A stretch of DNA of 42,266 nt from an uncultured Prevotellaceae bacterium (GTDB taxonomy: Bacteria; Bacteroidota; Bacteroidia; Bacteroidales; Muribaculaceae): the NCBI GenBank assembly GCA_900318345.1, contig ONKD01000015.1, forward strand, positions 1-42,266, written 5' to 3'. The notes under the pieces are model-generated. The model did no database searches, had not been told where the DNA came from, and was given only the letters and a program-made list of their open reading frames with translations. This document shows, one piece after another, positions 422 through 37,810 of the stretch. Made by a program: the position numbers and the translations under genes. The first letter of the stretch is position 1. Every line of letters begins with the position of its first letter.

Positions 422-3262
422 TTATTGTTTAAAATGCTTTAATCTCTCATACCATTCACACACCCTATCGATCGCAGGTGTCTCGATACCGTTTAATCTC
501 GCAGTGTCACGGATATAAAACGTTCCACACTCAAAGTCCTCGGTGAAATAACGACTATCCAAATCAGGTATAAAGCCATTTCCAGCTTGTTTCATTGGGG
601 ACATAATTGACTTGAATGCTGGGATAGAACGTATTTTGCGTGACAAAGAGGATGCATCGGTCGATTCATAGTAATCAAGAATCGATGGAACACTCATCGG
701 GTCAACTGGCAAATGCTTCAATAATTCTTGCAACTCATTATCCATGTCGATGAGTAATTGAGAAGCCGCATCATCCCACTCGCCATAGAAAGGAGGAATC
801 TGCTCATATTGTACAGATGGATTCCAGTCCTTCCACATGGTGTAGAGTCGTGCCGGGTGCAACAAGGGATTGCTGTTAGAGATACTTACCTCGTAGAAAT
901 TACTTAACAACTTCACAGGTGTGTGCAGCAAGTGTTCTATCGTCAGGCGTATTGCGTTCCCATTGCCATTTTCCACACACAGGCTGAGTGACTTCTTTGA
1001 GCCCAAGAGATCGGCCTCTTTGCCGTATTCAACAATTCTCGATATGAACGGAACACGCTGAAAGCCGAAAACTGTCTGTTTTGGGATCACTTCATGGGCA
1101 TGAAAGAAAAAGCCGGTATTCGACACAATGGTGCCGACTATCGTTTTCTTGTTCAGATACGGCTTTATTTGCTCAAGCATTGACTTGATGTGGGGACCAG
1201 GTAAGCAGATAAAGACCATATCGGCATCAGGTATGACCTGTTCGGCTTTTGATGTCACGAGATTCAATTTACCATTCAGCGCTTCAGAACCGCTTGGATT
1301 CTTTACATTGATTTTCAAAGAATCAGACCATTTATCGGGATGTCCTGTTAAGACATTTACACGATGGCGTCCTTGTGAAGCCAAATATCCGGCCATCACA
1401 TGACCCAGATTACCACCACCACAGATGCAAATATTCAATCCGTTAAGGCTCTTAAGCGCATCCACAAGCTGGTTGTTGTCCTTCTCGTCACGAATGGCAA
1501 TCCTGACAAAATTCTTTCCTTCGAGGCCTGTTTTAGTGTCACAGTCTTTAATTAGTATATTATGGTCATTCAGCAACATTTCAGTCAGCTGCCTTGACGT
1601 GTAGTGCTTCGTCACTTGGCACAAGAAGTAATTGGCCTGTGAGGGTATTACCCTGAGATAAGGAATTAAAGATAATTGCTCGGCAAAACGATTGCGCTCA
1701 TGCACAAAGCTGACACAGGCATTTTTATAGAAAGATTCATACTTGTTGAAAATCTGCATATAGAACTCAGCGAACGAATTGATGTTCCAAATGGCAACAT
1801 CCTTTTTCATTCTATTCAGCAAATCGGTATCGGCGCCTGCCAGGATTCCAAGTCTTAGGCCTGGAACACCGTAAGACTTGCTGATGCTCTTCATAACCAA
1901 CAGATTCGGGTATTTCTCCAAGATATCATCATTCAGCAAAGAATTAGCAGGTCCTTCGTTTGAGAAATCCACAAACGATTCGTCCACAATCAGCCTGATA
2001 CCGCGTTGAGTACACCATGTAGCTAAATCAAGCACATCGTCCTTGGGAATGAAGTTTCCAGACGGATTGTCGGGATTGATGAGCAGTAATGCCTTGATAT
2101 CCTTTGACTCATAGAATGCTTTTAAATCATCGGTGGAATAGTGCAAATCAGGAAGATCCGGATAAAAGGGCACAATAGCCTCCTTAGCCAAACGATGAGG
2201 ATACTCTTCAAATGTCGGATACACGACTCCCACCTTATTACCCTTCTCCGTGGTTTGTTCCATTAAGCTCTTTATCAGCTCGGCAGCACCATTTCCCACA
2301 ATGATATACTGAGTGCTGACCCCAAAATACTTTCCAGCCAACAGCGAATTGACAGCCATGCCGCTGGGATATTGTGTCAAGAGTTCGTCAAAGTTGGCTC
2401 GCATTTCATCTCTCATTCGTTTCGGTGGGAAAAACGGATTGACGAGATAACAGAAATCCAACATTTTAGGAAATCTCCAATAGCCGCCATACCTTAAATG
2501 GTACTTTTGCAAACGGTCTTTCTCGGGAGAAAAAATGGCCTCGGCAATATCCTTATCCTGCACATCATCGATCTCATACCATGGCTTGTCCCCGATGGGC
2601 AATGCTTTGAGATTGGCCTGATCCAACAATGTGATCACGCGCAGTACTTGCTCGTAATACTCATTGTTTCCCATTACCTTGCAATAAGCGTCCAGGAACG
2701 GCACATAGACCTTGGTCGAGAACTCCCTGCTGAACTTGTAGACATTTACCGTTTTATAATAGGAGTCCACCTCAGAATACTTGAAAGCCTTTTTGGGCAC
2801 AAAGTTGACAATGTTGTTATCCTTGTCGATGCGTACCATCGTGCCGTCCATCCATGTCTCATATTTAGCTACAAGCGCCAAGTTGGGAAACGGGTTATCC
2901 AAAATCATCTGGAAAAGACCGTCATCCAGAATCAAATCACTCTCGATGAGAAGCGTGTCATCCTCGACCATTTTGTCCTTGACTAAGGCCAAAGAATAAA
3001 TGTTGTTGGTCTTGTCATAGACAGGATTCTCGGCAAATTCAATCTTCAACCTGCCATCATAACGATCACCGATATACTCCATCAATTCCTTGCCTTTGTA
3101 TCCAACGACCAAAACAAGGCGAGAAAGGTTTAACTGGCACAATTGTTCCAACATCCTGTCAATAAGCCTAACTCCATTGACTGGTAACATACACTTGGTG
3201 TTGTCGCGGGTGTATTTGCCTAACCTGCGGCCCATTCCGGCCGCTAAAATTATCGCTTGCAT
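422..3262 (-). CDS. Trifunctional fusion: nucleotidyltransferase, CobD-like PLP enzyme, opine-type dehydrogenase
   Basis: The protein has 946 residues and three enzyme domains. Residues 1-240 form a LicC-like sugar-phosphate or phosphocholine nucleotidyltransferase with the signature LAAGMGRRLG (6-15) and acidic ESD (107-109). Residues 250-608 form a fold-type I PLP enzyme with VGNGAAELI (322-330), NPDNPSG (396-402), DESFVDF (427-433) and the likely PLP lysine K462 in SKSYGVPGLRLG. These motifs look more like CobD (threonine-phosphate decarboxylase) than classical HisC. Residues 609-946 resemble NAD/NADP octopine/nopaline dehydrogenases, with a GGGNLGH Rossmann loop (615-621), the NPLLHPA helical-domain motif (798-804) and a conserved-looking D831. 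It is the last gene of the glycan operon, 21 bases after licD. Inference: it makes, N-alkylates and CDP-activates a phospho-amino-alcohol used by LicD. The substrate is not known from sequence. A simple aminotransferase role for the middle domain cannot be excluded. Confidence 0.85.
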   Translation of the reverse strand: MQAIILAAGMGRRLGKYTRDNTKCMLPVNGVRLIDRMLEQLCQLNLSRLVLVVGYKGKELMEYIGDRYDGRLKIEFAENPVYDKTNNIYSLALVKDKMVEDDTLLIESDLILDDGLFQMILDNPFPNLALVAKYETWMDGTMVRIDKDNNIVNFVPKKAFKYSEVDSYYKTVNVYKFSREFSTKVYVPFLDAYCKVMGNNEYYEQVLRVITLLDQANLKALPIGDKPWYEIDDVQDKDIAEAIFSPEKDRLQKYHLRYGGYWRFPKMLDFCYLVNPFFPPKRMRDEMRANFDELLTQYPSGMAVNSLLAGKYFGVSTQYIIVGNGAAELIKSLMEQTTEKGNKVGVVYPTFEEYPHRLAKEAIVPFYPDLPDLHYSTDDLKAFYESKDIKALLLINPDNPSGNFIPKDDVLDLATWCTQRGIRLIVDESFVDFSNEGPANSLLNDDILEKYPNLLVMKSISKSYGVPGLRLGILAGADTDLLNRMKKDVAIWNINSFAEFYMQIFNKYESFYKNACVSFVHERNRFAEQLSLIPYLRVIPSQANYFLCQVTKHYTSRQLTEMLLNDHNILIKDCDTKTGLEGKNFVRIAIRDEKDNNQLVDALKSLNGLNICICGGGNLGHVMAGYLASQGRHRVNVLTGHPDKWSDSLKINVKNPSGSEALNGKLNLVTSKAEQVIPDADMVFICLPGPHIKSMLEQIKPYLNKKTIVGTIVSNTGFFFHAHEVIPKQTVFGFQRVPFISRIVEYGKEADLLGSKKSLSLCVENGNGNAIRLTIEHLLHTPVKLLSNFYEVSISNSNPLLHPARLYTMWKDWNPSVQYEQIPPFYGEWDDAASQLLIDMDNELQELLKHLPVDPMSVPSILDYYESTDASSLSRKIRSIPAFKSIMSPMKQAGNGFIPDLDSRYFTEDFECGTFYIRDTARLNGIETPAIDRVCEWYERLKHFKQ

Positions 3263-3283
3263 TATATCCTGTTTATATCATTG

Positions 3284-4093
3284 TTAGTCGTAAAATTCAA
3301 GACGCTCGACATGGTGGTAGACATTATCGAGATTGTCGGGGAGCTTCATATAGTCGCCATACATGGTTTGGAGCATATGTTGACTGTTGGATGGAACCGA
3401 AAGTTGAACACCCTCAAAAACATGAGTTGTCAACGGGAACACATCTTTTAGGTCATAGATGTTGTGGAACGGGATTCCGTAGTCGCACATGAGTGCCTTG
3501 GTGCCACTCAGACGGCTGACGGCACGCAACAACGGAAAAGCGAAATGACGGTTGAACCACGTCAAAACCCTGATTTTTTTCATTGCTGAGTCATTGCCAT
3601 CACCCTTGCGGAAGATGTTGTAGGCCATGCTCTGCAAACGTAAACGCTGCGTCCAAGGCAAGAGTATGTCCAATGGGAAAATATCGATGAAGATACCTCT
3701 TTCTTTAAACACCTTATCAAAAATTCCCTCATCAAGGAAAGACCGTTTATCCCTCAGTTTACCGACAAAATAGAAATAATTCTTGTCGGTGTCATTGGTC
3801 TGCAGGGCAATGTGCTCGGGTAGTTCATCTGGCAAGACTTCCAAGAAACGCTTGTAATCACGGCGCATCATGGCCACATCCAGGTCGTCATCCCAAGGAA
3901 TGAATCCATTGTGTCGGAATGCACCCAACAAAGTTCCGCCATATAGAAAGTATGGTATATTGTGCTTCTTGCAAATCCGGTCGAGAACTTTTGCCATCTC
4001 CAGCATGACCATCTGTTGGCGGCGCAAAAGAGAACCCTCAGGGTTAAATCTAGCCCTAAGTTCCTCTTGATTGAATACGGGATTGTCTGCCAT
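3284..4093 (-). CDS. licD: LicD family phosphotransferase
   Basis: The protein has 269 residues and the LicD signature: GTLLGAFRHNG (53-63) followed by PWDDDLDVAM (66-75). It resembles nucleotidyltransferase-fold enzymes that move phosphocholine or similar groups from CDP carriers to glycans. The carboxylate cluster DDDLD is the expected metal site. LicD proteins act at the inner face of the membrane or in the cytosol on lipid-linked or nascent glycans. It lies 17 bases downstream of galE and 21 bases upstream of the fusion gene, whose first domain is of the CDP-forming type. The pair therefore reads as donor synthesis plus transfer. The acceptor glycan and the true transferred group are unknown. 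Confidence 0.88.
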   Translation of the reverse strand: MADNPVFNQEELRARFNPEGSLLRRQQMVMLEMAKVLDRICKKHNIPYFLYGGTLLGAFRHNGFIPWDDDLDVAMMRRDYKRFLEVLPDELPEHIALQTNDTDKNYFYFVGKLRDKRSFLDEGIFDKVFKERGIFIDIFPLDILLPWTQRLRLQSMAYNIFRKGDGNDSAMKKIRVLTWFNRHFAFPLLRAVSRLSGTKALMCDYGIPFHNIYDLKDVFPLTTHVFEGVQLSVPSNSQHMLQTMYGDYMKLPDNLDNVYHHVERLEFYD

Positions 4094-4110: not shown

Positions 4111-5145
4111 TTACATGATACCGCGCTCGCGGAGGCGTTTCTGCCAGTTCCAAGCGCTGAGCATGGTGTCGTCGAGGGAAATCTCGGCATGCCAGCCCAG
4201 GACCTCGTTGGCTCGCTTGGGGTCGGCCCAAATCTGGACGATGTCACCGGGACGGCGTGGAGCGATCTTGTGAGGCACTTTCACGCCCGTGGCACGTTCG
4301 AAGGAGTGCAGCAGTTCCAGCACCGAAGCGCCGTTGCCAGTACCGATGTTGAAGATTTCCAACGCTTCGTCGCTCTTGTCCTCGAGCATACGTTCTAGGG
4401 CCTTAACATGGGCCTTGGCCAAGTCCACGACGTTAATGAAGTCACGGATACAAGAACCGTCACGCGTGGGATAGTCGTCGCCAAAGATGCTCAACTCCTT
4501 GCGCACACCGATAGCAGTCTGTGTGAGGAAAGGCACCAAATTCTGGGGCACACCATTGGGCAACTCGCCGATTTCGGCACTGGGATGAGCGCCGATGGGA
4601 TTGAAGTAGCGCAGCAGGATGGCCTTGATGGGGCTGCCGCTGCGGATAACGTCGGCAATAATGTCCTCACAAATCTGCTTGGTGGCGCCATAGGGCGAGG
4701 TAGCCTTCTTGGTCGGCGCGTCCTCGGTAATGGGGTTCTTGTCGGGCTCACCATAGACGGTGCATGACGACGAGAACACAAAGCCCTTCACGCCAAACTC
4801 GGGCATGAGTTCCAGCAGGTTGAGCAGGATGTTGAGGTTGTTGCGGTAGTACTTGATGGGCTTCTGCATGCTCTCGCCCACCGCCTTGCTGGCCGCAAAG
4901 TTGATGATGCCGCTGATGCCGGGATTGTCCTCAAACAGCTTACGCAGCACTGCCCTATCGGTGCAATCGCCCTTGACAAAGATGGGACGAATGCCAGTGA
5001 TGCGCTCGATACCGTCAAGCACCTCGATATTACTATTGCTCAGGTCGTCGATGATGACCACATCATAGCCAGCCTGTTGCAACTCTACTGTAGTGTGTGA
5101 ACCGATGAACCCGGTTCCGCCGGTTACTAAAATCTTTCCTTTCAT
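4111..5145 (-). CDS. galE: UDP-glucose 4-epimerase
   Basis: The 344-residue protein is a short-chain dehydrogenase-fold epimerase interconverting UDP-Glc and UDP-Gal (or their N-acetyl forms). The NAD loop TGGTGFIGSH is at residues 8-17. A catalytic SSS...YGATK pair (Ser, then Tyr and Lys in SPYGATK) and the C-terminal RRPGDI segment typical of GalE are visible. The length is normal for the family (about 338-345). It is in the surface-glycan operon between the flippase and licD, so it probably supplies a galactose-type sugar for the same glycan. There is no Leloir-pathway gene beside it. Substrate preference for N-acetylated sugars cannot be judged. Confidence 0.95.
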   Translation of the reverse strand: MKGKILVTGGTGFIGSHTTVELQQAGYDVVIIDDLSNSNIEVLDGIERITGIRPIFVKGDCTDRAVLRKLFEDNPGISGIINFAASKAVGESMQKPIKYYRNNLNILLNLLELMPEFGVKGFVFSSSCTVYGEPDKNPITEDAPTKKATSPYGATKQICEDIIADVIRSGSPIKAILLRYFNPIGAHPSAEIGELPNGVPQNLVPFLTQTAIGVRKELSIFGDDYPTRDGSCIRDFINVVDLAKAHVKALERMLEDKSDEALEIFNIGTGNGASVLELLHSFERATGVKVPHKIAPRRPGDIVQIWADPKRANEVLGWHAEISLDDTMLSAWNWQKRLRERGIM

Positions 5146-5160
5146 AGTTATCTATATTTT

Positions 5161-6630
5161 TTATTGATGATGTCTTGATTTCTTGGAACGGATAAACTCA
5201 ATGCACTCCTCGAGGATCCTTGCCCGCAACAGTTTCATCGTTATAACGTAGAGTGCCGCCGCCAACAGGATGCGCGCCACGAGCAGGAAGTACATATTGC
5301 TGATGCTGAGTGTCACGAGATAGGTCACCGCCATCGCTACCAGTGCAATGACCATAAATGGCAACAAATCGCGCAGCATGCTTACAAAGCGGTAACCGAT
5401 GAGCCGATAGGCAAACAATTGCCAGGCCAGCAGCCACAGGATGTTGATGCAAGCAAACGCAATCACCATCGCTGTAATACCTAACTTGTGGCAAGCTAAT
5501 ACCGCAATGAGCATGACGGCAATCTGTGAGATGGTGAGCCACATGTAGGTATCGGATTTCCCTTGACTGAGGAATAAATTCTGATAAACTGTGTACAGTG
5601 GGATGAACGCGCCGCTGATGCACAGGATCTGCAACAACGGGATGCTGTCAACCCATTTCTCGCCGATGGCCAGAAGTATCACCTGTGGCGCAACAATCGC
5701 CAAGCCAAACATGGCAGGGAAGGCCAAAAAGGCCGTGAAGCGCAACATCTTGCCGAAGACCCGACGTTGACGCTCTTGGTCATCGGTGATGCGTGTGAGG
5801 ACTGGCTGTGCTACCTGGGCTACAGTATTGGAGACCAGCTGATTGGCCATTGTGTTCCACTTATTGGCCTGTGTGAAATTTCCCACAGCTTGAGCGGGGA
5901 ACAAGCGACCAAATATTACCGTCAACATGTTGTTGTTGATTGTGGTCAATACCGCGGTAACCAGCACCTTGTAGCTGAATGAGAACATCTGTTTCACGGG
6001 GGTAAAGTCCACCTTGAGCGTCGGGCACCAGCGGGTATAATAGAAGCGCCCGATGACGATGACCACATTATATAATATCTGTTGCGTTGCCAGGCTCCAG
6101 TAAGAAAAACCCTTCAAAGCCATAATCACAGCTACGGTGCCTGATACCACCAGGGCCGACAGCGATGTGATCGCCTTTTCCTTCATCTTCAATTCCCTCA
6201 CGAGCATCGCGTTGGGGGAGATGCCCAGCGAAGCAATGACAAACGCCAGGAAAACAAAGCGCGATAACGACACCAGACAAGGCTGATGAAAAAAGGCGGC
6301 AATCAACGGGGCACACAGAAACAGGATCAGGTACAACGAGAGACTCATCCCCACGTTGAACCAGAATACCGAGTTATAGTCGTTGTGCTTGATGTCCTTA
6401 ATATTGACGAGCGCCACACCAAAACCGCTCTCTTGCAAGTTGTTGGCAAGAAGGGTGAAAATGGCCAGCAAGCCAACAATGCCATACTCTCCAGGCGACA
6501 ACAGACGGGCCAAAAAGATACCGATAATCAGGTTAAGCAACTGGATGCCCCCGCTGCTGAGAAAAGCCCAAAATAGACCCTGGGCAGTTTTCTCTTTCAG
6601 GTTCTGATTATCAATATCGTCACTTTTCAT
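5161..6630 (-). CDS. Wzx-like polysaccharide flippase (MOP superfamily)
   Basis: From the chosen start the protein has 489 residues, almost entirely hydrophobic helices (about 12-14), with the family N-terminus NLKEKTAQGLFWAF. It belongs to the polysaccharide-synthesis group of MOP exporters, which flip lipid-linked oligosaccharides across the inner membrane. An ATG at 6657 would add nine residues. The ATG at 6628-6630 is preferred because it overlaps the stop of the upstream phosphatase gene as TAATG, a typical coupled junction, and gives the family-like N-terminus. No Wzy polymerase is visible in the operon, so the exported unit may be a single repeat or be polymerised by a protein encoded elsewhere. 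Confidence 0.88.
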   Translation of the reverse strand: MKSDDIDNQNLKEKTAQGLFWAFLSSGGIQLLNLIIGIFLARLLSPGEYGIVGLLAIFTLLANNLQESGFGVALVNIKDIKHNDYNSVFWFNVGMSLSLYLILFLCAPLIAAFFHQPCLVSLSRFVFLAFVIASLGISPNAMLVRELKMKEKAITSLSALVVSGTVAVIMALKGFSYWSLATQQILYNVVIVIGRFYYTRWCPTLKVDFTPVKQMFSFSYKVLVTAVLTTINNNMLTVIFGRLFPAQAVGNFTQANKWNTMANQLVSNTVAQVAQPVLTRITDDQERQRRVFGKMLRFTAFLAFPAMFGLAIVAPQVILLAIGEKWVDSIPLLQILCISGAFIPLYTVYQNLFLSQGKSDTYMWLTISQIAVMLIAVLACHKLGITAMVIAFACINILWLLAWQLFAYRLIGYRFVSMLRDLLPFMVIALVAMAVTYLVTLSISNMYFLLVARILLAAALYVITMKLLRARILEECIEFIRSKKSRHHQ

Positions 6631-7148
6631 TACCTTGCCAATATCAAATCGATCCATTCACGCACGCAGGCATCACCGCCGCGGCGCTGCAGGATGTGTA
6701 TTCCTGGAATTGATCTTACCTTTTCGCATGCATCGGCAGGACAAGCCGCCCATCCCACTGCCGCCAGCAGATCGTAGCAGTTCACATCGTCGCCCACATA
6801 GGCGACATCTTGCAAAGTGATTCCCAGTTCGTCGCATATCTCCTGTGTAGCGGCCAACTTGCCGCCATCACGGGCACTCTGCTTGAGGAAATCCACTCCC
6901 AGCTTGCGGGCACGATTCACATTGATGGGCGTGTTCTCACTGGTCACGATACCCACCTTGACGCCAGTGCGTTGCAGCAACTGCAGCCCCATGCCGTCGC
7001 GGGTGTTGAATTTCTTGAATTCAGTCCCGTCGCTGCCATAGTACATGCCGCCGTCGGTGAGCGTACCGTCAACATCGGTCAAGAACAGCTTGATGTCACT
7101 AGGAGCTGGTACAGGTATTCTATGTTCGTTGTTCGTTAGCTCTGCCAT
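6630..7148 (-). CDS. KdsC-like HAD phosphatase
   Basis: The 172-residue protein is a small HAD phosphatase of the KdsC type (3-deoxy-manno-octulosonate-8-phosphate phosphatase), without a cap domain. Motif I, DVDGTLTDG (25-33), has the two catalytic aspartates. Then follow GIVTSEN (motif II region), the conserved Lys region and GDDVNCYDLL (motif III and IV). The length fits KdsC (about 170-190). No other Kdo genes are near, so it may instead dephosphorylate another sugar acid or a precursor of the glycan decoration made by this operon. It begins 3 bases after the glycosyltransferase stop and its stop overlaps the flippase start, so it is translationally linked to both. Confidence 0.82.
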   Translation of the reverse strand: MAELTNNEHRIPVPAPSDIKLFLTDVDGTLTDGGMYYGSDGTEFKKFNTRDGMGLQLLQRTGVKVGIVTSENTPINVNRARKLGVDFLKQSARDGGKLAATQEICDELGITLQDVAYVGDDVNCYDLLAAVGWAACPADACEKVRSIPGIHILQRRGGDACVREWIDLILAR

Positions 7149-7151
7149 AAC

Positions 7152-8093
7152 TCATTTGACGTATTTTTCAATATGATAACGTGGACGGTGCTTGCCCTCG
7201 GTGTAGATGCGCCCAATATAGACTGCGATGATACTCAAGCAGATCAACAGGCAACCCCCGACGAACCAAATCGAGAGCATGAGCGAAGCCCATCCTTGCA
7301 CGCCATTGCCACGGCACAGCGAAACGATGACGTAAACCAAAATCGCAAGACTGATCAACAGGAAAATGGTGCCAAGGTAAAAAATCAGATTCAACGGCTT
7401 CACACTGAATGAAGTGACGCCATCAATCGCAAACGACAACATCTTGCTGAAGGGGTACTTGCTCTCCCCCGCCTCGCGCGACAAGCGGTCATAATAGACC
7501 ACATCGCTCTGATAGCCTATTTGGGGTACAAGACCCCTCAAGAACAGGTTGCGCTCCTCATAATCGCAGAGGGCACTCACCGCGCGACTGCTCATGAGCC
7601 TGAAGTCGGCATGGTTGTCAATCGTTTTAGCGCCCATGTCTTCCATGAGCTTATAGAACAGCCGGGCTGATGTACGCTTGGAGAAAGAGTCGTGTTCACG
7701 CTTGCGACGAACGCCATAAACGATGTCATTGCCGGCATCAAACTTCCTGATCATCTCGGGAATGACGTTGATGTCATCCTGCAAGTCAGCATCGATGGTG
7801 ATGGTCACATCGGCATCAACATTAGCGGTTTCCAATCCCGCCATGAGTGCATTCTGGTGCCCCACATTGCCTGCCAATTTCAAGCCACGCACATGACTGC
7901 CCACATAACCCTCGATCAACTGCCACGTACCGTCACGCGACCCGTCATCAACATAGAGGATGTAGCTGTCATCACTGACGATGCCATCGCGCATCATGCC
8001 GCCAAGTAACGCTCCCAGCCGCTCGTTGGTCTGCGGGAGCATATCGAGCTCATTAAAGCACGGCACGATGATTGCTAAAGTCGATTTATCCAT
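7152..8093 (-). CDS. GT2 glycosyltransferase, polyprenyl-phosphate type (DPM1/GtrB-like)
   Basis: From the chosen start the protein has 313 residues. The N-terminal GT-A domain has IVPCFNE (9-15), VDDGSRDGT (48-56) and the metal site DADLQDD (101-107). Two C-terminal membrane helices lie at about 225-300. This is the layout of GtrB-like enzymes that load a sugar onto undecaprenyl phosphate at the inner membrane. The frame is open to an earlier ATG at 8159. That start is rejected because a near-perfect promoter (-33 at 8152-8155, -7 at 8124-8131) lies inside the extra part and the family N-terminus begins at MDKSTLAIIVP. It is the first gene of the six-gene operon. The sugar transferred is unknown. 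Confidence 0.9.
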   Translation of the reverse strand: MDKSTLAIIVPCFNELDMLPQTNERLGALLGGMMRDGIVSDDSYILYVDDGSRDGTWQLIEGYVGSHVRGLKLAGNVGHQNALMAGLETANVDADVTITIDADLQDDINVIPEMIRKFDAGNDIVYGVRRKREHDSFSKRTSARLFYKLMEDMGAKTIDNHADFRLMSSRAVSALCDYEERNLFLRGLVPQIGYQSDVVYYDRLSREAGESKYPFSKMLSFAIDGVTSFSVKPLNLIFYLGTIFLLISLAILVYVIVSLCRGNGVQGWASLMLSIWFVGGCLLICLSIIAVYIGRIYTEGKHRPRYHIEKYVK

Positions 8094-8123
8094 ATTCTCG
8101 AGAAGTCCAAATAGACTAAAATG

Positions 8124-8155
8124 CAAAAGTACACATTTTTGACCGAAATGGCAAA
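8124..8155 (-). promoter_or_regulatory. Bacteroidetes housekeeping promoter for the glycan operon
   Basis: On the minus strand, TTTG (8155-8152), 20 bases and TACTTTTG (8131-8124) match the Bacteroides sigma-ABfr consensus. Transcription would start near 8117, about 24 bases before the ATG at 8093. It also decides the start codon of the glycosyltransferase. Confidence 0.8.
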
Positions 8156-8228
8156 ACAATTCTTGCAGTGGCAGTGATTTTTATTAGCGATTTGGAGAGA
8201 AGAATGATGCCAAGTTACATAAATTTTG

Positions 8229-28900: not shown

Positions 28901-28996
28901 TTACAGAGCGAGACGCAGTCCCAAGTAAGCGGACGTTGTCGTCGGCATGTTGTTGACCCTGAGGGACACGCGGCTACTCGTAGCGGGAAGTACCCA
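28901..28996 (-). other. Candidate DGR variable region (VR)
   Basis: The last 31 codons (W536 to L566 plus stop) have the frame of FGE-like DGR variable repeats: RGGCW, a scrambled stretch, then GLRLAL. Positions where relatives usually carry Asn codons hold GTA, CTT, CCC, GCT, AGT, AGC, CTC, GTC, TCC, GCT and TAC. The first two bases are scattered while the third is mostly C or T, as expected for mutagenesis of AAY template codons. The end (TTGGGACTGCGTCTCGCTCTG) is GC-rich and A-poor, like an IMH. No template copy or reverse transcriptase is in the window. Confidence 0.5.
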
Positions 28997-30601
28997 GCAA
29001 CCACCACGGAATACGCGGAAGGCACCTGTTGAGGGACCAGTGGGATTAGTTTGAGGCTGGCTGCTATATTTGCCATAGATGTCCTGGCACCATTCCCACA
29101 CGTTACCCGACATGTCATACAAGCCCAACTCGTTGGGAGCCTTTGTTGCCACGGGCTGAGTCATTGAGGTAGAGTTAGCACTGTACCATGCCACTTCGTT
29201 GACATCGTTACTACCAGCATATTTGTAGCCTTCGCTCTTCTTGCCACCGCGGGCTGCAAATTCCCACTCGGCTTCAGTAGGCAGGCGGAATGTCATGCCG
29301 GTCATCTCGTTCAACTTTTCAATAAACAACTGGCAGTCATACCAAGATACCCTTTCAACGGGACGGTTAATACCACTTGAGAAGTTGCTCGGGTTAGTAC
29401 CCATCACAGCCGTCCACAGTTCCTGGGTCACCTCGGTCTCGCCAATGCAATAACTTGACAGCGTCACCTCGTGGACAGGAAGCTCATCGCTGGTTACATC
29501 GCTGCCTTGCTCCTCGGTACCACCCATGGTGAAGGTGCCACCCTCTACAGCGATCATCTTGAAGGTCACACCGTTTACCGTATAGGTATCGGTCACGGGC
29601 GGGTTCAAGTCAATGCTACCCAAGAGGTAGTCAATCAACATGGTCGCGTCTTTGATGCTCACGCTCTCGTCGTGGTTACAGTCAGCGTTGGTCTCGCTGA
29701 ATGGTGCTTCCACCTCACCACCAAGCAGATAGTCGATGAGTTTGGTCACGTCACTAATCGTCACATAGCCGTCACAGTTAACATCGCCAAGTTCGGTATA
29801 AACAATTACCTCGCAAGTATCGGGAATAGCCTGCTCATCAACAGAGTTTACAACGACCATCGTTGAACCCTCAGCCAAACCGACCACCTGGATTACACCG
29901 TTCACGAGACGGGCAGCAGCTACCTCGGGATTGCTCGATGAGACTTTAATCTCAGTTTGCAGCGGAGCCATGGTGGGGAAGAGCGTCAATGCATGGTTGG
30001 GCAACAATCTTGCCACATGCCTGTCAAGACTGATTTGAATCGTGGTCTCAAGTACAGTAATATGACACACGCTCTGCTTATCAAGGCAACTAACCACAAT
30101 GTCACACTCGCCGGGGAACACACCAGTAACGATGCCGTCGCTAACGGTTGCTACCTCGGGATTAGTTGAATACCAATCAACTGATTGTGCCGAAGCATTC
30201 TCGGGCAATACAGTGGCATTGATATTCATGACACCACCAACATACAATTCGGCTGAGCTCGGACTCAGAGCCACTCCGGTCGGCTCCACGGCATCATTCT
30301 CCATTGTCGCAAAGTTGCTCCAATAATCGGCAAGGAAATAAGCTCCATAGGATGTTGAGGGCATATGCAGTATTGCGCCATACTCCAGGAATGTATTCTC
30401 AACACATGCGGGAGGTGTCGCAGCAAAGGAATAAACCACACTTGGATTTACTTGCAAGGGGCCAAGTGTACTCACACCACTACCGATGTACAGCGTTGAA
30501 CCGTCGCTATAGACGCCTTCAGCCAACTGTTCATAAGCACTCGCTGCTACAGGCAACAACGCTGCCATCAACAAAACGATTGAATGTAAAAACTTATTCA
30601 T
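28901..30601 (-). CDS. Secreted Big2/dockerin/FGE-like protein, candidate DGR target
   Basis: The 566-residue protein has a signal peptide (1-22) and an N-terminal region of unknown type (23-104). Two Big2-like Ig domains follow (about 105-183 and 187-268). A dockerin pair sits at 272-328 (GDVNCDGYVTISDVTKLIDYLL and ADCNHDESVSIKDATMLIDYLL). Residues 345-566 form a formylglycine-generating-enzyme/C-type-lectin-like domain (FKMIAVEGGTFTMGG, then RLPTEAEWEFAARGG and DMSGNVWEWCQD). FGE catalytic cysteines near the C-terminus are not seen. The C-terminus after RGGCW departs strongly from the family and looks like a diversified ligand-binding surface. The protein is therefore more likely a surface or secreted binding protein than an enzyme. 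An internal dockerin before the FGE-like domain is unusual. The gene stands alone. Confidence 0.85.
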   Translation of the reverse strand: MNKFLHSIVLLMAALLPVAASAYEQLAEGVYSDGSTLYIGSGVSTLGPLQVNPSVVYSFAATPPACVENTFLEYGAILHMPSTSYGAYFLADYWSNFATMENDAVEPTGVALSPSSAELYVGGVMNINATVLPENASAQSVDWYSTNPEVATVSDGIVTGVFPGECDIVVSCLDKQSVCHITVLETTIQISLDRHVARLLPNHALTLFPTMAPLQTEIKVSSSNPEVAAARLVNGVIQVVGLAEGSTMVVVNSVDEQAIPDTCEVIVYTELGDVNCDGYVTISDVTKLIDYLLGGEVEAPFSETNADCNHDESVSIKDATMLIDYLLGSIDLNPPVTDTYTVNGVTFKMIAVEGGTFTMGGTEEQGSDVTSDELPVHEVTLSSYCIGETEVTQELWTAVMGTNPSNFSSGINRPVERVSWYDCQLFIEKLNEMTGMTFRLPTEAEWEFAARGGKKSEGYKYAGSNDVNEVAWYSANSTSMTQPVATKAPNELGLYDMSGNVWEWCQDIYGKYSSQPQTNPTGPSTGAFRVFRGGCWVLPATSSRVSLRVNNMPTTTSAYLGLRLAL

Positions 30602-36040: not shown

Positions 36041-37810
36041 TTAGTGAATAGACTTATCAAAGTAATGCGTGTGAAGCAGGTGATGTGCTTTCTCGCCACA
36101 GGGCTCGCCCAGGAAGTCCTTGTAGAGCTTCTGGATGTCGGGGTTCTCGTGGCTCTTGCGCAGGGCCTTGCCCTCGTCCTCGCGGTAAACGGCAGCGGCA
36201 CGGGCCTTGAGAATCTCGATGTTGCCGTGGTGGTAGGGCTGACCAGCGCCACCAATGCAACCGCCGGGACATGCCATCACCTCAACAACATGGTAGTTGA
36301 GCTTGCCGGCGCGCAGCAGTTCCATGACCTTGCGTGCATTGCTCAGGGTGTGAGCGATGCAGACCTTGAGCTCAAAGCCGTTGAGGTCGATTGTAGCTTC
36401 CCTGATGCCTTCCAGACCACGCACTTCGTTGAACTCGAGGTGCGGCAGGGTCTTGCCGGTGTGCACCTCATAGACGGTGCGCAATGCGGCCTCCATCACA
36501 CCACCAGTGTTGGCGAAGATAGCGCCTGCACCTGTGGACTCGCCCAGAGGAGAATCAAAGTCGCCGTCGGGCAGGTTAGCGAAGTCGATGTTGGCGCGCT
36601 TGATCAGGCGGCCCAACTCGCGGGTCGAGATGCTGTAGTCCACATCGGGATTGCCATCAACCTTGAACTCGTCACGGCCGCACTCGTACTTCTTGGCCAA
36701 GCAGGGCATGATTGAAACGACAACGAGTTTCTCGCGGGGGATACCCATCTTCTCAGCCCAGTAGGTCTTGGCAACAGCGCCAAACATCTGAGCGGGCGAC
36801 TTGGCAGTCGAGGGATACTCGAGCAGATCAGGGAACTCGTGCTCATAGAAGTTAACCCATGCGGGGCAGCATGAAGTCATAACAGGCAGTTTCACATCCT
36901 TATCGCCAGCAAGGAACTTGTTGAGGCGACCCAGGATCTCGGTGCCCTCTTCCATGATGGTAAGGTCAGCACCGAAGTCGGTGTCGAACACATAGTCAAA
37001 GCCGAGGTCACGCAATGCGGTAGCCATCTTGCCAGTCACGATAGTGCCGGGCTTCATGCCGAACTCCTCGCCCAAAGCGACGCGCACTGCAGGTGCGGGC
37101 TGAGCAACAACCACCTTGTCGGGGTTGGTCAGGTCGTCCATGAGCTGGTTGGTATAGTCATGCTCGGTCAAGGCACCAGTGGGACATACGGCGACGCACT
37201 GGCCGCAATAGGTACAGTTGGTGTCGGTGAACATCTTGTCGAAGGTGGGAGCGATGGTGGTGTTGAAACCACGGCGGATAGCGCTCAGCACGCCTACAGA
37301 CTGAACATTGTTGCAGACACTCTCGCAACGGCGGCAGTAAACACACTTCTCCATGTTGCGTGAGATGGCGGGCGTCAACTCTTGTTTGCGCTCGCTCTGC
37401 TCACCACCGTTATAAGGCATTTGGCGGATGTTGAAGCGCATAACCAGACGCTGCAACTCACAGTCACTGCACTTGGGGCAGGTCAAGCAATCGTTGGGAT
37501 GGTCGCTAAGCATCAGCTCGGCAACGGTCTTGCGGGCGCGAATAACGCGGGCACTGTTGGTGTGAACCACCATACCAGGAGTCACGCGGGTAGCGCAGGC
37601 AGGAGCCAGATTGCGACGGCCTTCGATCTCCACAACACAAATGCGGCACGATGCGGGCATGTTCTGAACACAGGTGCCCTCGAGGTCGATGTGGCACAGG
37701 GTGGGAATGCTGATGCCCACAGTCTTGGCGGCATCGAGCAGCATGGTCCCTGCGGGAACATTTACCTCGTGTTTATCAATCGTCAGAGTGATCATATTCT
37801 TTTCTTCCAT
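36041..37810 (-). CDS. hydA: [FeFe] hydrogenase catalytic subunit
   Basis: The 589-residue protein reduces protons or oxidises H2 in the cytosol. Domains in order: N-terminal [2Fe-2S] (cysteines 39-72 region), a His/Cys cluster (HPNDCLTCPKCSDC, 104-117) and two [4Fe-4S] sets (CVYCRRCESVC and CTYCGQCVAVC). The H-cluster domain has L1 TSCCPAW (312-318), L2 MPCLAKKYE (368-376) and L3 MACPGGC (512-518). All H-cluster cysteines are present. It is shorter than the Thermotoga HydA because the extra C-terminal [2Fe-2S] domain is absent. With NuoF-like and NuoE-like partners it fits the trimeric, NADH-linked, possibly electron-bifurcating group. The maturases HydE, HydF and HydG are not in the window. 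A downstream Met (MITLTI) five residues in is an alternative start. Confidence 0.95.
   Translation of the reverse strand: MEEKNMITLTIDKHEVNVPAGTMLLDAAKTVGISIPTLCHIDLEGTCVQNMPASCRICVVEIEGRRNLAPACATRVTPGMVVHTNSARVIRARKTVAELMLSDHPNDCLTCPKCSDCELQRLVMRFNIRQMPYNGGEQSERKQELTPAISRNMEKCVYCRRCESVCNNVQSVGVLSAIRRGFNTTIAPTFDKMFTDTNCTYCGQCVAVCPTGALTEHDYTNQLMDDLTNPDKVVVAQPAPAVRVALGEEFGMKPGTIVTGKMATALRDLGFDYVFDTDFGADLTIMEEGTEILGRLNKFLAGDKDVKLPVMTSCCPAWVNFYEHEFPDLLEYPSTAKSPAQMFGAVAKTYWAEKMGIPREKLVVVSIMPCLAKKYECGRDEFKVDGNPDVDYSISTRELGRLIKRANIDFANLPDGDFDSPLGESTGAGAIFANTGGVMEAALRTVYEVHTGKTLPHLEFNEVRGLEGIREATIDLNGFELKVCIAHTLSNARKVMELLRAGKLNYHVVEVMACPGGCIGGAGQPYHHGNIEILKARAAAVYREDEGKALRKSHENPDIQKLYKDFLGEPCGEKAHHLLHTHYFDKSIH

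Follow-up and report, generated by a model that had tools for sequence, protein, structure and literature searches.

A fusion of LicC-like, CobD-like and opine-dehydrogenase-like domains beside LicD: a candidate pathway to N-carboxyalkylated phosphoethanolamine on a Bacteroidales surface glycan

A single open reading frame (ORF) on the 42,266-nucleotide contig ONKD01000015.1 of an uncultured Prevotellaceae gut bacterium (the window, that is, the whole stretch analyzed) joins in 946 residues a LicC-like nucleotidyltransferase (NTP), a CobD-like pyridoxal phosphate (PLP) enzyme and an octopine-type dehydrogenase (ODH), and lies next to a LicD gene. We consider it likely that this fusion supplies a surface glycan with phosphoethanolamine in an activated "opine" form. 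The first-pass annotation had put forward such a pathway, and as far as sequence can test it the proposal stands: it is supported by the enzyme classes, by the pairing of NTP-PLP and ODH genes where they are unfused, by a second, unrelated reductase of the ornithine cyclodeaminase (OCD)/mu-crystallin family in the same slot, by an OCD gene at the end of a 2-aminoethylphosphonate (AEP) gene set, and by the nearby LicD. The triple fusion is a rare form of a gene set widespread in Bacteroidales.

We propose that the PLP domain would form phosphoethanolamine by decarboxylating an O-phospho-amino acid, most likely O-phosphoserine, and that the NTP domain would use CTP to activate the phosphate. The ODH domain would join the primary amine to a 2-oxo acid (pyruvate is the likeliest) and reduce the imine with NAD(P)H, leaving an N-(1-carboxyalkyl) group; LicD would then move N-carboxyalkyl-phosphoethanolamine from its CDP carrier onto a sugar in the glycan exported by the neighbouring Wzx. 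Enzyme families, conserved active-site residues, fusions, conserved pairing and reductase swaps are read directly from the genes, while we infer the substrates, the order of alkylation and CDP activation, the acceptor and the stereochemistry. Carboxyethylated phosphoethanolamine, a listed bacterial O-polysaccharide group, thereby gains, in rumen and human-associated commensals, a candidate pathway open to assay, and a poorly understood surface decoration gains a testable gene set with interchangeable reductases in relatives. Through the reductase, a zwitterionic phosphoethanolamine would become a group with net acidic charge, which would alter the charge of the surface.

The fusion protein and its three active sites

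All three regions that the first-pass annotation had recognized in the 946-residue chain exceed their Pfam cut-offs (NTP_transf_3, 40.2 bits against 27; Aminotran_1_2, 127.5 against 19.7; Octopine_DH, 103.9 against 30), and the motifs it had picked out (VGNGAAELI, DESFVDF, GGGNLGH, NPLLHPA and K462) are all present in the translation. Its placement of LicD beside the fusion also holds: the LicD gene lies 21 bp upstream, and both genes are on the minus strand, a detail it had left unstated. On the plus strand, the frame of 422-4093 is crowded with stop codons. An assembly join as the origin of the ORF is ruled out because independent assemblies hold the same full-length fusion: one (L053) encodes a 946-aa protein with 98% identity over residues 1-607, and those of G940, G905 and G966 share 83-88% identity with the window fusion. 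The triple fusion was seen in five assemblies: the window; L053; L054, the same genome as G940; G905; and G966. It is the one match to PF02317 at E 0.001 in the window's genome.

The NTP domain finds LicC (1jyk, 48.4 bits) and then a PntC-AEP transaminase (6pd1, 39.7 bits) as its best solved structures; it scores above the cut-offs of PF12804 and PF00483, and several sugar-phosphate nucleotidyltransferase models match it weakly, all below cut-off. E107, kept in 80 of 80 aligned rows, falls opposite PntC Glu104, which is reported to contact the primary amine of AEP (PMC6697681; here and below, PMC numbers stand for excerpts of the articles). We predict a LicC/PntC-type cytidylyltransferase that would act with CTP on a phospho-amino-alcohol.

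The PLP domain is of class I/II, with the lysine and fold-type-I motifs in place: D427, N396 and R470 are kept in all 80 rows, K462 and R587 in 79. Among solved structures it is closest to 6oux (154.8 bits), followed by 3ftb and, third, CobD (1lc5). The structure 6oux bears the name "threonine phosphate decarboxylase-like enzyme", and SMUL_1544 of the Sulfurospirillum norcobamide cluster is annotated alike (PMC7755780), so that 6oux is probably the SMUL_1544 enzyme. A Sulfurospirillum protein from the plasmid collection (H17), 31.2% identical to the PLP part, is annotated "norcobamide biosynthesis serine-O-phosphate decarboxylase". Ethanolamine is a constituent of norcobamides, and SMUL_1544 presumably releases CO2 from phosphoserine. 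Decarboxylation of serine phosphate in capsule synthesis has a precedent in Cj1436 of Campylobacter (PMC12409886).

The same pathway could run on a different substrate if the PLP domain acted on O-phosphothreonine, as CobD does, and the tag were built on 1-amino-2-propanol phosphate. In favor of this version, the best NCBIfam model is that of CobD, threonine-phosphate decarboxylase (TIGR01140), and CobD ranks among the three best structures; however, the very best structure bears the name of SMUL_1544, the Sulfurospirillum relative is annotated as acting on serine-O-phosphate, and the same OCD type stands in an AEP gene set, where the amine has two carbons. We judge phosphothreonine unlikely. 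A more distant possibility is that the PLP domain is a transaminase, converting, for example, dihydroxyacetone phosphate to serinol phosphate, which would then be CDP-activated and N-carboxyalkylated. Histidinol-phosphate transaminases are indeed the next-best models (162.8 bits), and a Campylobacter capsule pathway uses both kinds of PLP enzyme, Cj1436 and Cj1437 (PMC12409886), yet the CobD model and CobD-like structures outscore the transaminases, and the phosphonate parallel suggests a plain aminoethyl group; we hold this alternative to be quite unlikely.

Two other roles were considered and rejected. A cobamide function does not fit the glycan operon context or the presence, among the cobalamin genes of the same genome, of a separate CobD-like gene, itself below the TIGR01140 cut-off at 240 bits. 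A phosphonate route for the window was rejected on the absence of phosphoenolpyruvate (PEP) mutase above cut-off in its genome (best match to the PEP_mutase profile 25.8 bits, cut-off 31.5). Phage records gave seven matches, all within the PLP part and below 32% identity.

The ODH domain is nearest to the octopine dehydrogenase of Pecten maximus (3c7a, 196.9 bits by profile). H802, R904 and D909, present in 48 of 48 rows, align with the His, NADH-sensing Arg and Asp of that enzyme, which works with a catalytic His-Asp dyad and senses NADH through Arg324 (PMC2924402, PMC10787698). Arg736 is equally invariant (48/48), stands where octopine dehydrogenase has Thr, and would suit an anionic amine. 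The dyad of octopine dehydrogenase consists of His212 and Asp329. The domain is a predicted opine dehydrogenase that would join an amine to a 2-oxo acid.

Two unrelated reductases at one position

Relatives were compared in 80 named loci with an NTP-PLP unit, the best 80 of 506 relatives; they include Prevotella, Hoylesella timonensis and Bacteroides cellulosilyticus, and they overlap the set of sampled genomes (L054/G940, L066/G878, L055/G970 and L107/G101 are the same genomes). By tblastn, ODH lies within 1.5 kb of NTP-PLP at 46 loci (fused in 2) and OCD at 18; 16 have neither and none has both. An ORF-based count had hidden the OCD genes of L081 and L090 under longer ORFs on the opposite strand. 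The ODH gene overlaps the NTP-PLP gene by 4 bp at 24 of the 44 unfused ODH loci, and at L131, one of the 16 loci without a near reductase, ODH is 3.5 kb away. LicD is found within 8 kb at 64 of 79 loci by profile (L120, without a called ORF, was left out) and at 59 of 80 by a stricter tblastn; to the first-pass annotation's question whether LicD always neighbours the unit, the answer is that it is common, not universal. At four loci ODH and LicD form one protein (L065:11858-13648, L070:11838-14606, L075:2447-4258 and L099:11818-13617), that of L070 with about 300 additional residues that Pfam, at the limit used, left unmatched. At L092:8412-9941, an IspD-like cytidylyltransferase is fused to LicD directly upstream of the NTP-PLP gene.

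The two reductases have replaced each other repeatedly. On a tree of the NTP-PLP unit, made from 80 rows by a quick method with 33 of 77 inner branches starred and 65 rows labelled ODH or OCD, at least 14 changes separate the two states, and close rows can differ, as do L079 and L087 (OCD) among L077, L085, L088 and L089 (ODH). In the family sample, 76 of 297 genomes match at E 1e-60, including 23 of 40 in the window's genus, its own genome among them. We compared the loci of 14 of these genomes. Seven of the 14, and the window, share the order GT2, HAD, Wzx, GalE, LicD and then NTP-PLP, beside yicC; in this syntenic locus of the window's genus, G940, G905, G966 and the window carry the fused ODH, and in G945, G981, G962 and G878 the NTP-PLP protein, of 607 aa, is unfused and accompanied by a convergent OCD gene, with no ODH match. 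Across the syntenic loci GalE is 96-97% and NTP-PLP 81-90% identical. At the other seven, the reductase adjoining NTP-PLP is OCD in G950, G738, G807 and G844 and ODH in G925, G759 and G970. That two unrelated reductases have so often taken each other's place at one position amounts to a natural experiment, and it points to a step common to both.

Opine makers are known in both families, octopine dehydrogenase in one and a sponge tauropine dehydrogenase in the other. In a modelled ornithine cyclodeaminase, Lys69 and Arg112 hold the carboxylate of the substrate and Asp228 accepts the proton (PMC3497308); the cassette OCD proteins have counterparts of the first two, Lys69 and Arg108, in all 25 rows (23 distinct). 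Sponge tauropine dehydrogenase, a member of the OCD/mu-crystallin family, shows that opine dehydrogenases can arise there (PMC4113996, PMC3840593). The sponge enzyme serves animal energy metabolism, whereas the cassette OCD would serve glycan tailoring; these OCD proteins occur only in relatives, with none in the window's genome. Tauropine dehydrogenase joins taurine and pyruvate, and taurine, a two-carbon amino acid, resembles phosphoethanolamine. Pfam confirmed the OCD label in all 8 proteins tested.

In the order sample (295 genomes), four OCD genes score 417-532 bits (G139, G034, G239 and G229). Those of G139 and G034 adjoin NTP-PLP, and both were used to build the OCD profile; that of G239 has two LicD-family ORFs as neighbours on a short contig. 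In G229 (L167:4614-9838), PEP mutase, phosphonopyruvate decarboxylase and a fusion of the PntC-AEP-transaminase type, all three above their NCBIfam cut-offs, are followed by an OCD gene that overlaps the end of the fusion by 4 bp; the row is a candidate route to N-carboxyalkylated aminoethylphosphonate. Although the only phosphonate case, it is our best pointer to the amine, which would be 2-aminoethyl phosphate or phosphonate. A fifth, weaker OCD match (140 bits, G240) is without such neighbours, and in G694, of the same genus as G229, the OCD type sits at a contig end with its neighbour beyond view.

Could the NTP and PLP domains and LicD make plain phosphoethanolamine, with ODH or OCD co-inherited and acting on another amine of the glycan or the cell, for example that of an amino acid or an amino sugar? 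Such an arrangement would account for the 16 loci without a near reductase and for a different ODH type in a polysaccharide locus that lacks NTP-PLP (L171, below). Against it, two unrelated reductases occupy one slot, never together, in reading frames that overlap or are fused; ODH is fused to either NTP-PLP or LicD; and OCD stands beside an AEP pathway. We regard co-inheritance as very unlikely. If the reductase instead acts on the phosphoethanolamine amine, as we favor, N-alkylation would be optional, given the loci with neither reductase, and the 16 loci lacking one nearby suggest that plain phosphoethanolamine is probably the base product. More tentatively, we suggest that Bacteroidales may possess an exchangeable "opine switch", in which a bifunctional enzyme making CDP-ethanolamine is combined with one or the other of two unrelated, repeatedly exchanged imine reductases; ODH and OCD might yield tags of opposite handedness or with different 2-oxo acids, strains might change their epitope by exchanging the reductase gene, and the OCD type might also serve aminoethylphosphonate.

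Distribution, contrary evidence and a possible lipid destination

Besides the window's genome, ten genomes of the order sample carry the NTP-PLP unit, with ODH adjacent in three (G018, G042 and G266) and OCD in two (G139 and G034). In G266 (L043:9003-10953), NTP and PLP are two ORFs, the first extending slightly into the PLP part, which we read as a split or disrupted gene. Conversely, six of the 295 genomes have ODH of the cassette type (449-551 bits), and all six carry the NTP-PLP unit; a distant ODH type (174-193 bits) is present in six further genomes, all without the unit. A different ODH type, at L171:6964-8175 (G183), lies in a polysaccharide locus without NTP-PLP, beside a sugar-transfer-associated ATP-grasp protein, and perhaps makes another opine-like glycan group. 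In the phylum sample (395 genomes), two genomes match at E 1e-60, the window's included. Distant NTP-PLP fusions (32-48% identity) appear in plasmid-collection records of Fusobacterium, Gloeothece, Pseudonocardia, Priestia, Erwinia and Rahnella.

A number of observations weigh against the proposed pathway. The PLP domain misses the TIGR01140 equivalog cut-off of 290.55 (196.7 bits for the whole protein, 200.1 for the domain), and the position aligned with CobD Arg323 is variable (K in 45, R in 29, S in 5 and a gap in 1 of 80 rows). ODH and OCD are both lacking within 1.5 kb at 16 of 80 named loci, and LicD is not near at 15 of 79 (profile) or 21 of 80 (strict tblastn). Among the ten order-sample genomes, three (G286, G101 and G151) have neither reductase, and two (G194 and G293) carry ODH on a separate contig. 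Both profiles behind the reverse searches, ODH and OCD, derive from cassette members, which makes these searches partly circular; the ODH profile was drawn from loci of the same six genomes. Farther afield, the 25.8 kb read from Fusobacterium vincentii contains NTP-PLP and LicD but neither reductase of the cassette type, and no ODH or OCD was seen near the NTP-PLP and LicD genes of Gloeothece. There (L147:5977-9439) a methyltransferase and then LicD come after the NTP-PLP fusion, and the set could provide a glycan with N-methylated phosphoethanolamine. In G042, the gene after NTP-PLP and ODH encodes a CDP-alcohol phosphatidyltransferase in place of LicD. The first-pass annotation had named homologues lacking LicD and glycan context as a case that would refute its pathway, and this applies in part: some relatives have no nearby LicD, and G042 has its CDP-alcohol phosphotransferase.

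The G042 arrangement raises the question of whether the tag is destined for a lipid rather than a glycan, and two plasmids that pair the NTP-PLP fusion with the CDP-alcohol phosphatidyltransferase family point the same way. These plasmids, of Erwinia rhapontici (L144:7980-10458) and Rahnella sikkimica (L145:7980-10458), have in common the fusion, the phosphatidyltransferase, HAD proteins and an ATP-grasp protein, in what looks like a natural-product cluster. The window's LicD, however, lies 21 bp from the fusion in a run with a flippase and a glycosyltransferase, and a CDP-alcohol profile built from two seeds had no match at 40 bits among 79 named loci; a lipid destination for the window's tag seems to us highly improbable, and a glycan remains the destination we favor.

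A lipid route may exist elsewhere. In seven genomes (G050, G279, G204, G089, G288, G176 and G284; loci L044-L048, L050 and L051), separate NTP and PLP genes are followed by an ORF of about 210-218 aa, and that of L045, the one of the seven tested with Pfam, is a CDP-alcohol phosphatidyltransferase; a CDP-ethanolamine lipid route is therefore possible in these separate-gene genomes. That the separate set replaces phosphatidylserine decarboxylase was rejected, the latter being present in 13 of 13 genomes, all seven separate-gene genomes included.

Known systems and the surrounding genes

The product group predicted here, N-[(R)-1-carboxyethyl]ethanolamine phosphate, is listed among the components of Proteus mirabilis O-polysaccharides (PMC9630907). 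The first-pass annotation had placed such a group in P. mirabilis O14; the species is right, and serogroup O14 is not seen in the excerpt of that source. The Proteus group is a chemical structure from another phylum. In the open-licence literature, with Proteus genomes outside the search, we found no gene for N-carboxyethylated ethanolamine phosphate; queries on octopine dehydrogenase with LicC and LicD, carboxyethyl with O-antigen, and Bacteroidota O-glycans gave, among the papers listed, no description of this pathway by title or abstract start.

Among characterized systems, the window resembles the PntC-AEP transaminase of Treponema denticola (Tde1415, 6pd1), in which a LicC-like cytidylyltransferase is fused to a PLP enzyme supplying its aminoethyl-phosphorus substrate for surface tailoring, and phosphocholine tailoring of the lic1 type, with LicC-like CDP activation and LicD transfer to a glycan (PMC6697681). 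The PntC-AEP system has a class V AEP transaminase and a phosphonate product, whereas the window has a class I/II CobD-like enzyme and an added imine-reductase domain; no PEP mutase above cut-off was found in the window's genome. In lic1 systems choline is imported, whereas the amine proposed here would come from an amino-acid phosphate and be reductively alkylated. CobD and SMUL_1544 are the nearest PLP relatives (CobD among solved structures), from which the window domain differs in its fusion to a nucleotidyltransferase, its score below the CobD cut-off and its location away from cobamide genes. Octopine dehydrogenase belongs by sequence to the same fold family as the window ODH, which keeps the equivalents of His, Asp and Arg324 but would act on an anionic phospho-amine, with Arg736 in place of Thr.

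The fusion and LicD belong to a same-strand run that continues through GalE, Wzx, a KdsC-like HAD protein and GT2 to position 8159 (Table 1). Its flanks, named by eye, are a ribosomal-protein-S16-like end and yicC. The Wzx protein does not reach the cut-off of the Bacteroidota O-glycosylation flippase model NF058658.

Table 1. Position, strand and supporting matches of the fusion, its domains and the genes of the same run
Feature	Position	Strand	Basis
Triple fusion NTP-PLP-ODH, 946 aa	422..3262	minus	ORF list; Pfam and NCBIfam
LicC/PntC-like nucleotidyltransferase (NTP) domain, residues 1-245	2528..3262	minus	nearest solved structures; E107
CobD / serine-phosphate-decarboxylase-like PLP domain, residues 246-607, PLP lysine K462	1442..2527	minus	TIGR01140; 6oux; K462
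Octopine/opine-dehydrogenase-like (ODH) domain, residues 608-946	425..1441	minus	PF02317; 3c7a; H802, R904, D909
LicD family phosphotransferase, 269 aa	3284..4093	minus	PF04991 148.1 bits (cut-off 22.6)
GalE-type UDP-sugar 4-epimerase, same operon	4111..5145	minus	TIGR01179 399.1 bits, above cut-off 262.3
Wzx-type flippase	5161..6657	minus	PF13440 258.3 bits; NF058658 659 bits, below cut-off 720
KdsC-like HAD phosphatase	6630..7148	minus	TIGR01670 123.9 bits, above cut-off 106.95; NF058599 161.3 bits, below cut-off 180
GT2 family glycosyltransferase	7152..8159	minus	PF00535 83.6 bits

Elsewhere in the window, two minus-strand genes encode a single protein with bacterial Ig-like, dockerin and formylglycine-generating-enzyme-type domains (28901-30601), and an iron-only hydrogenase with NADH-dehydrogenase-type iron-sulfur domains (36041-37810).

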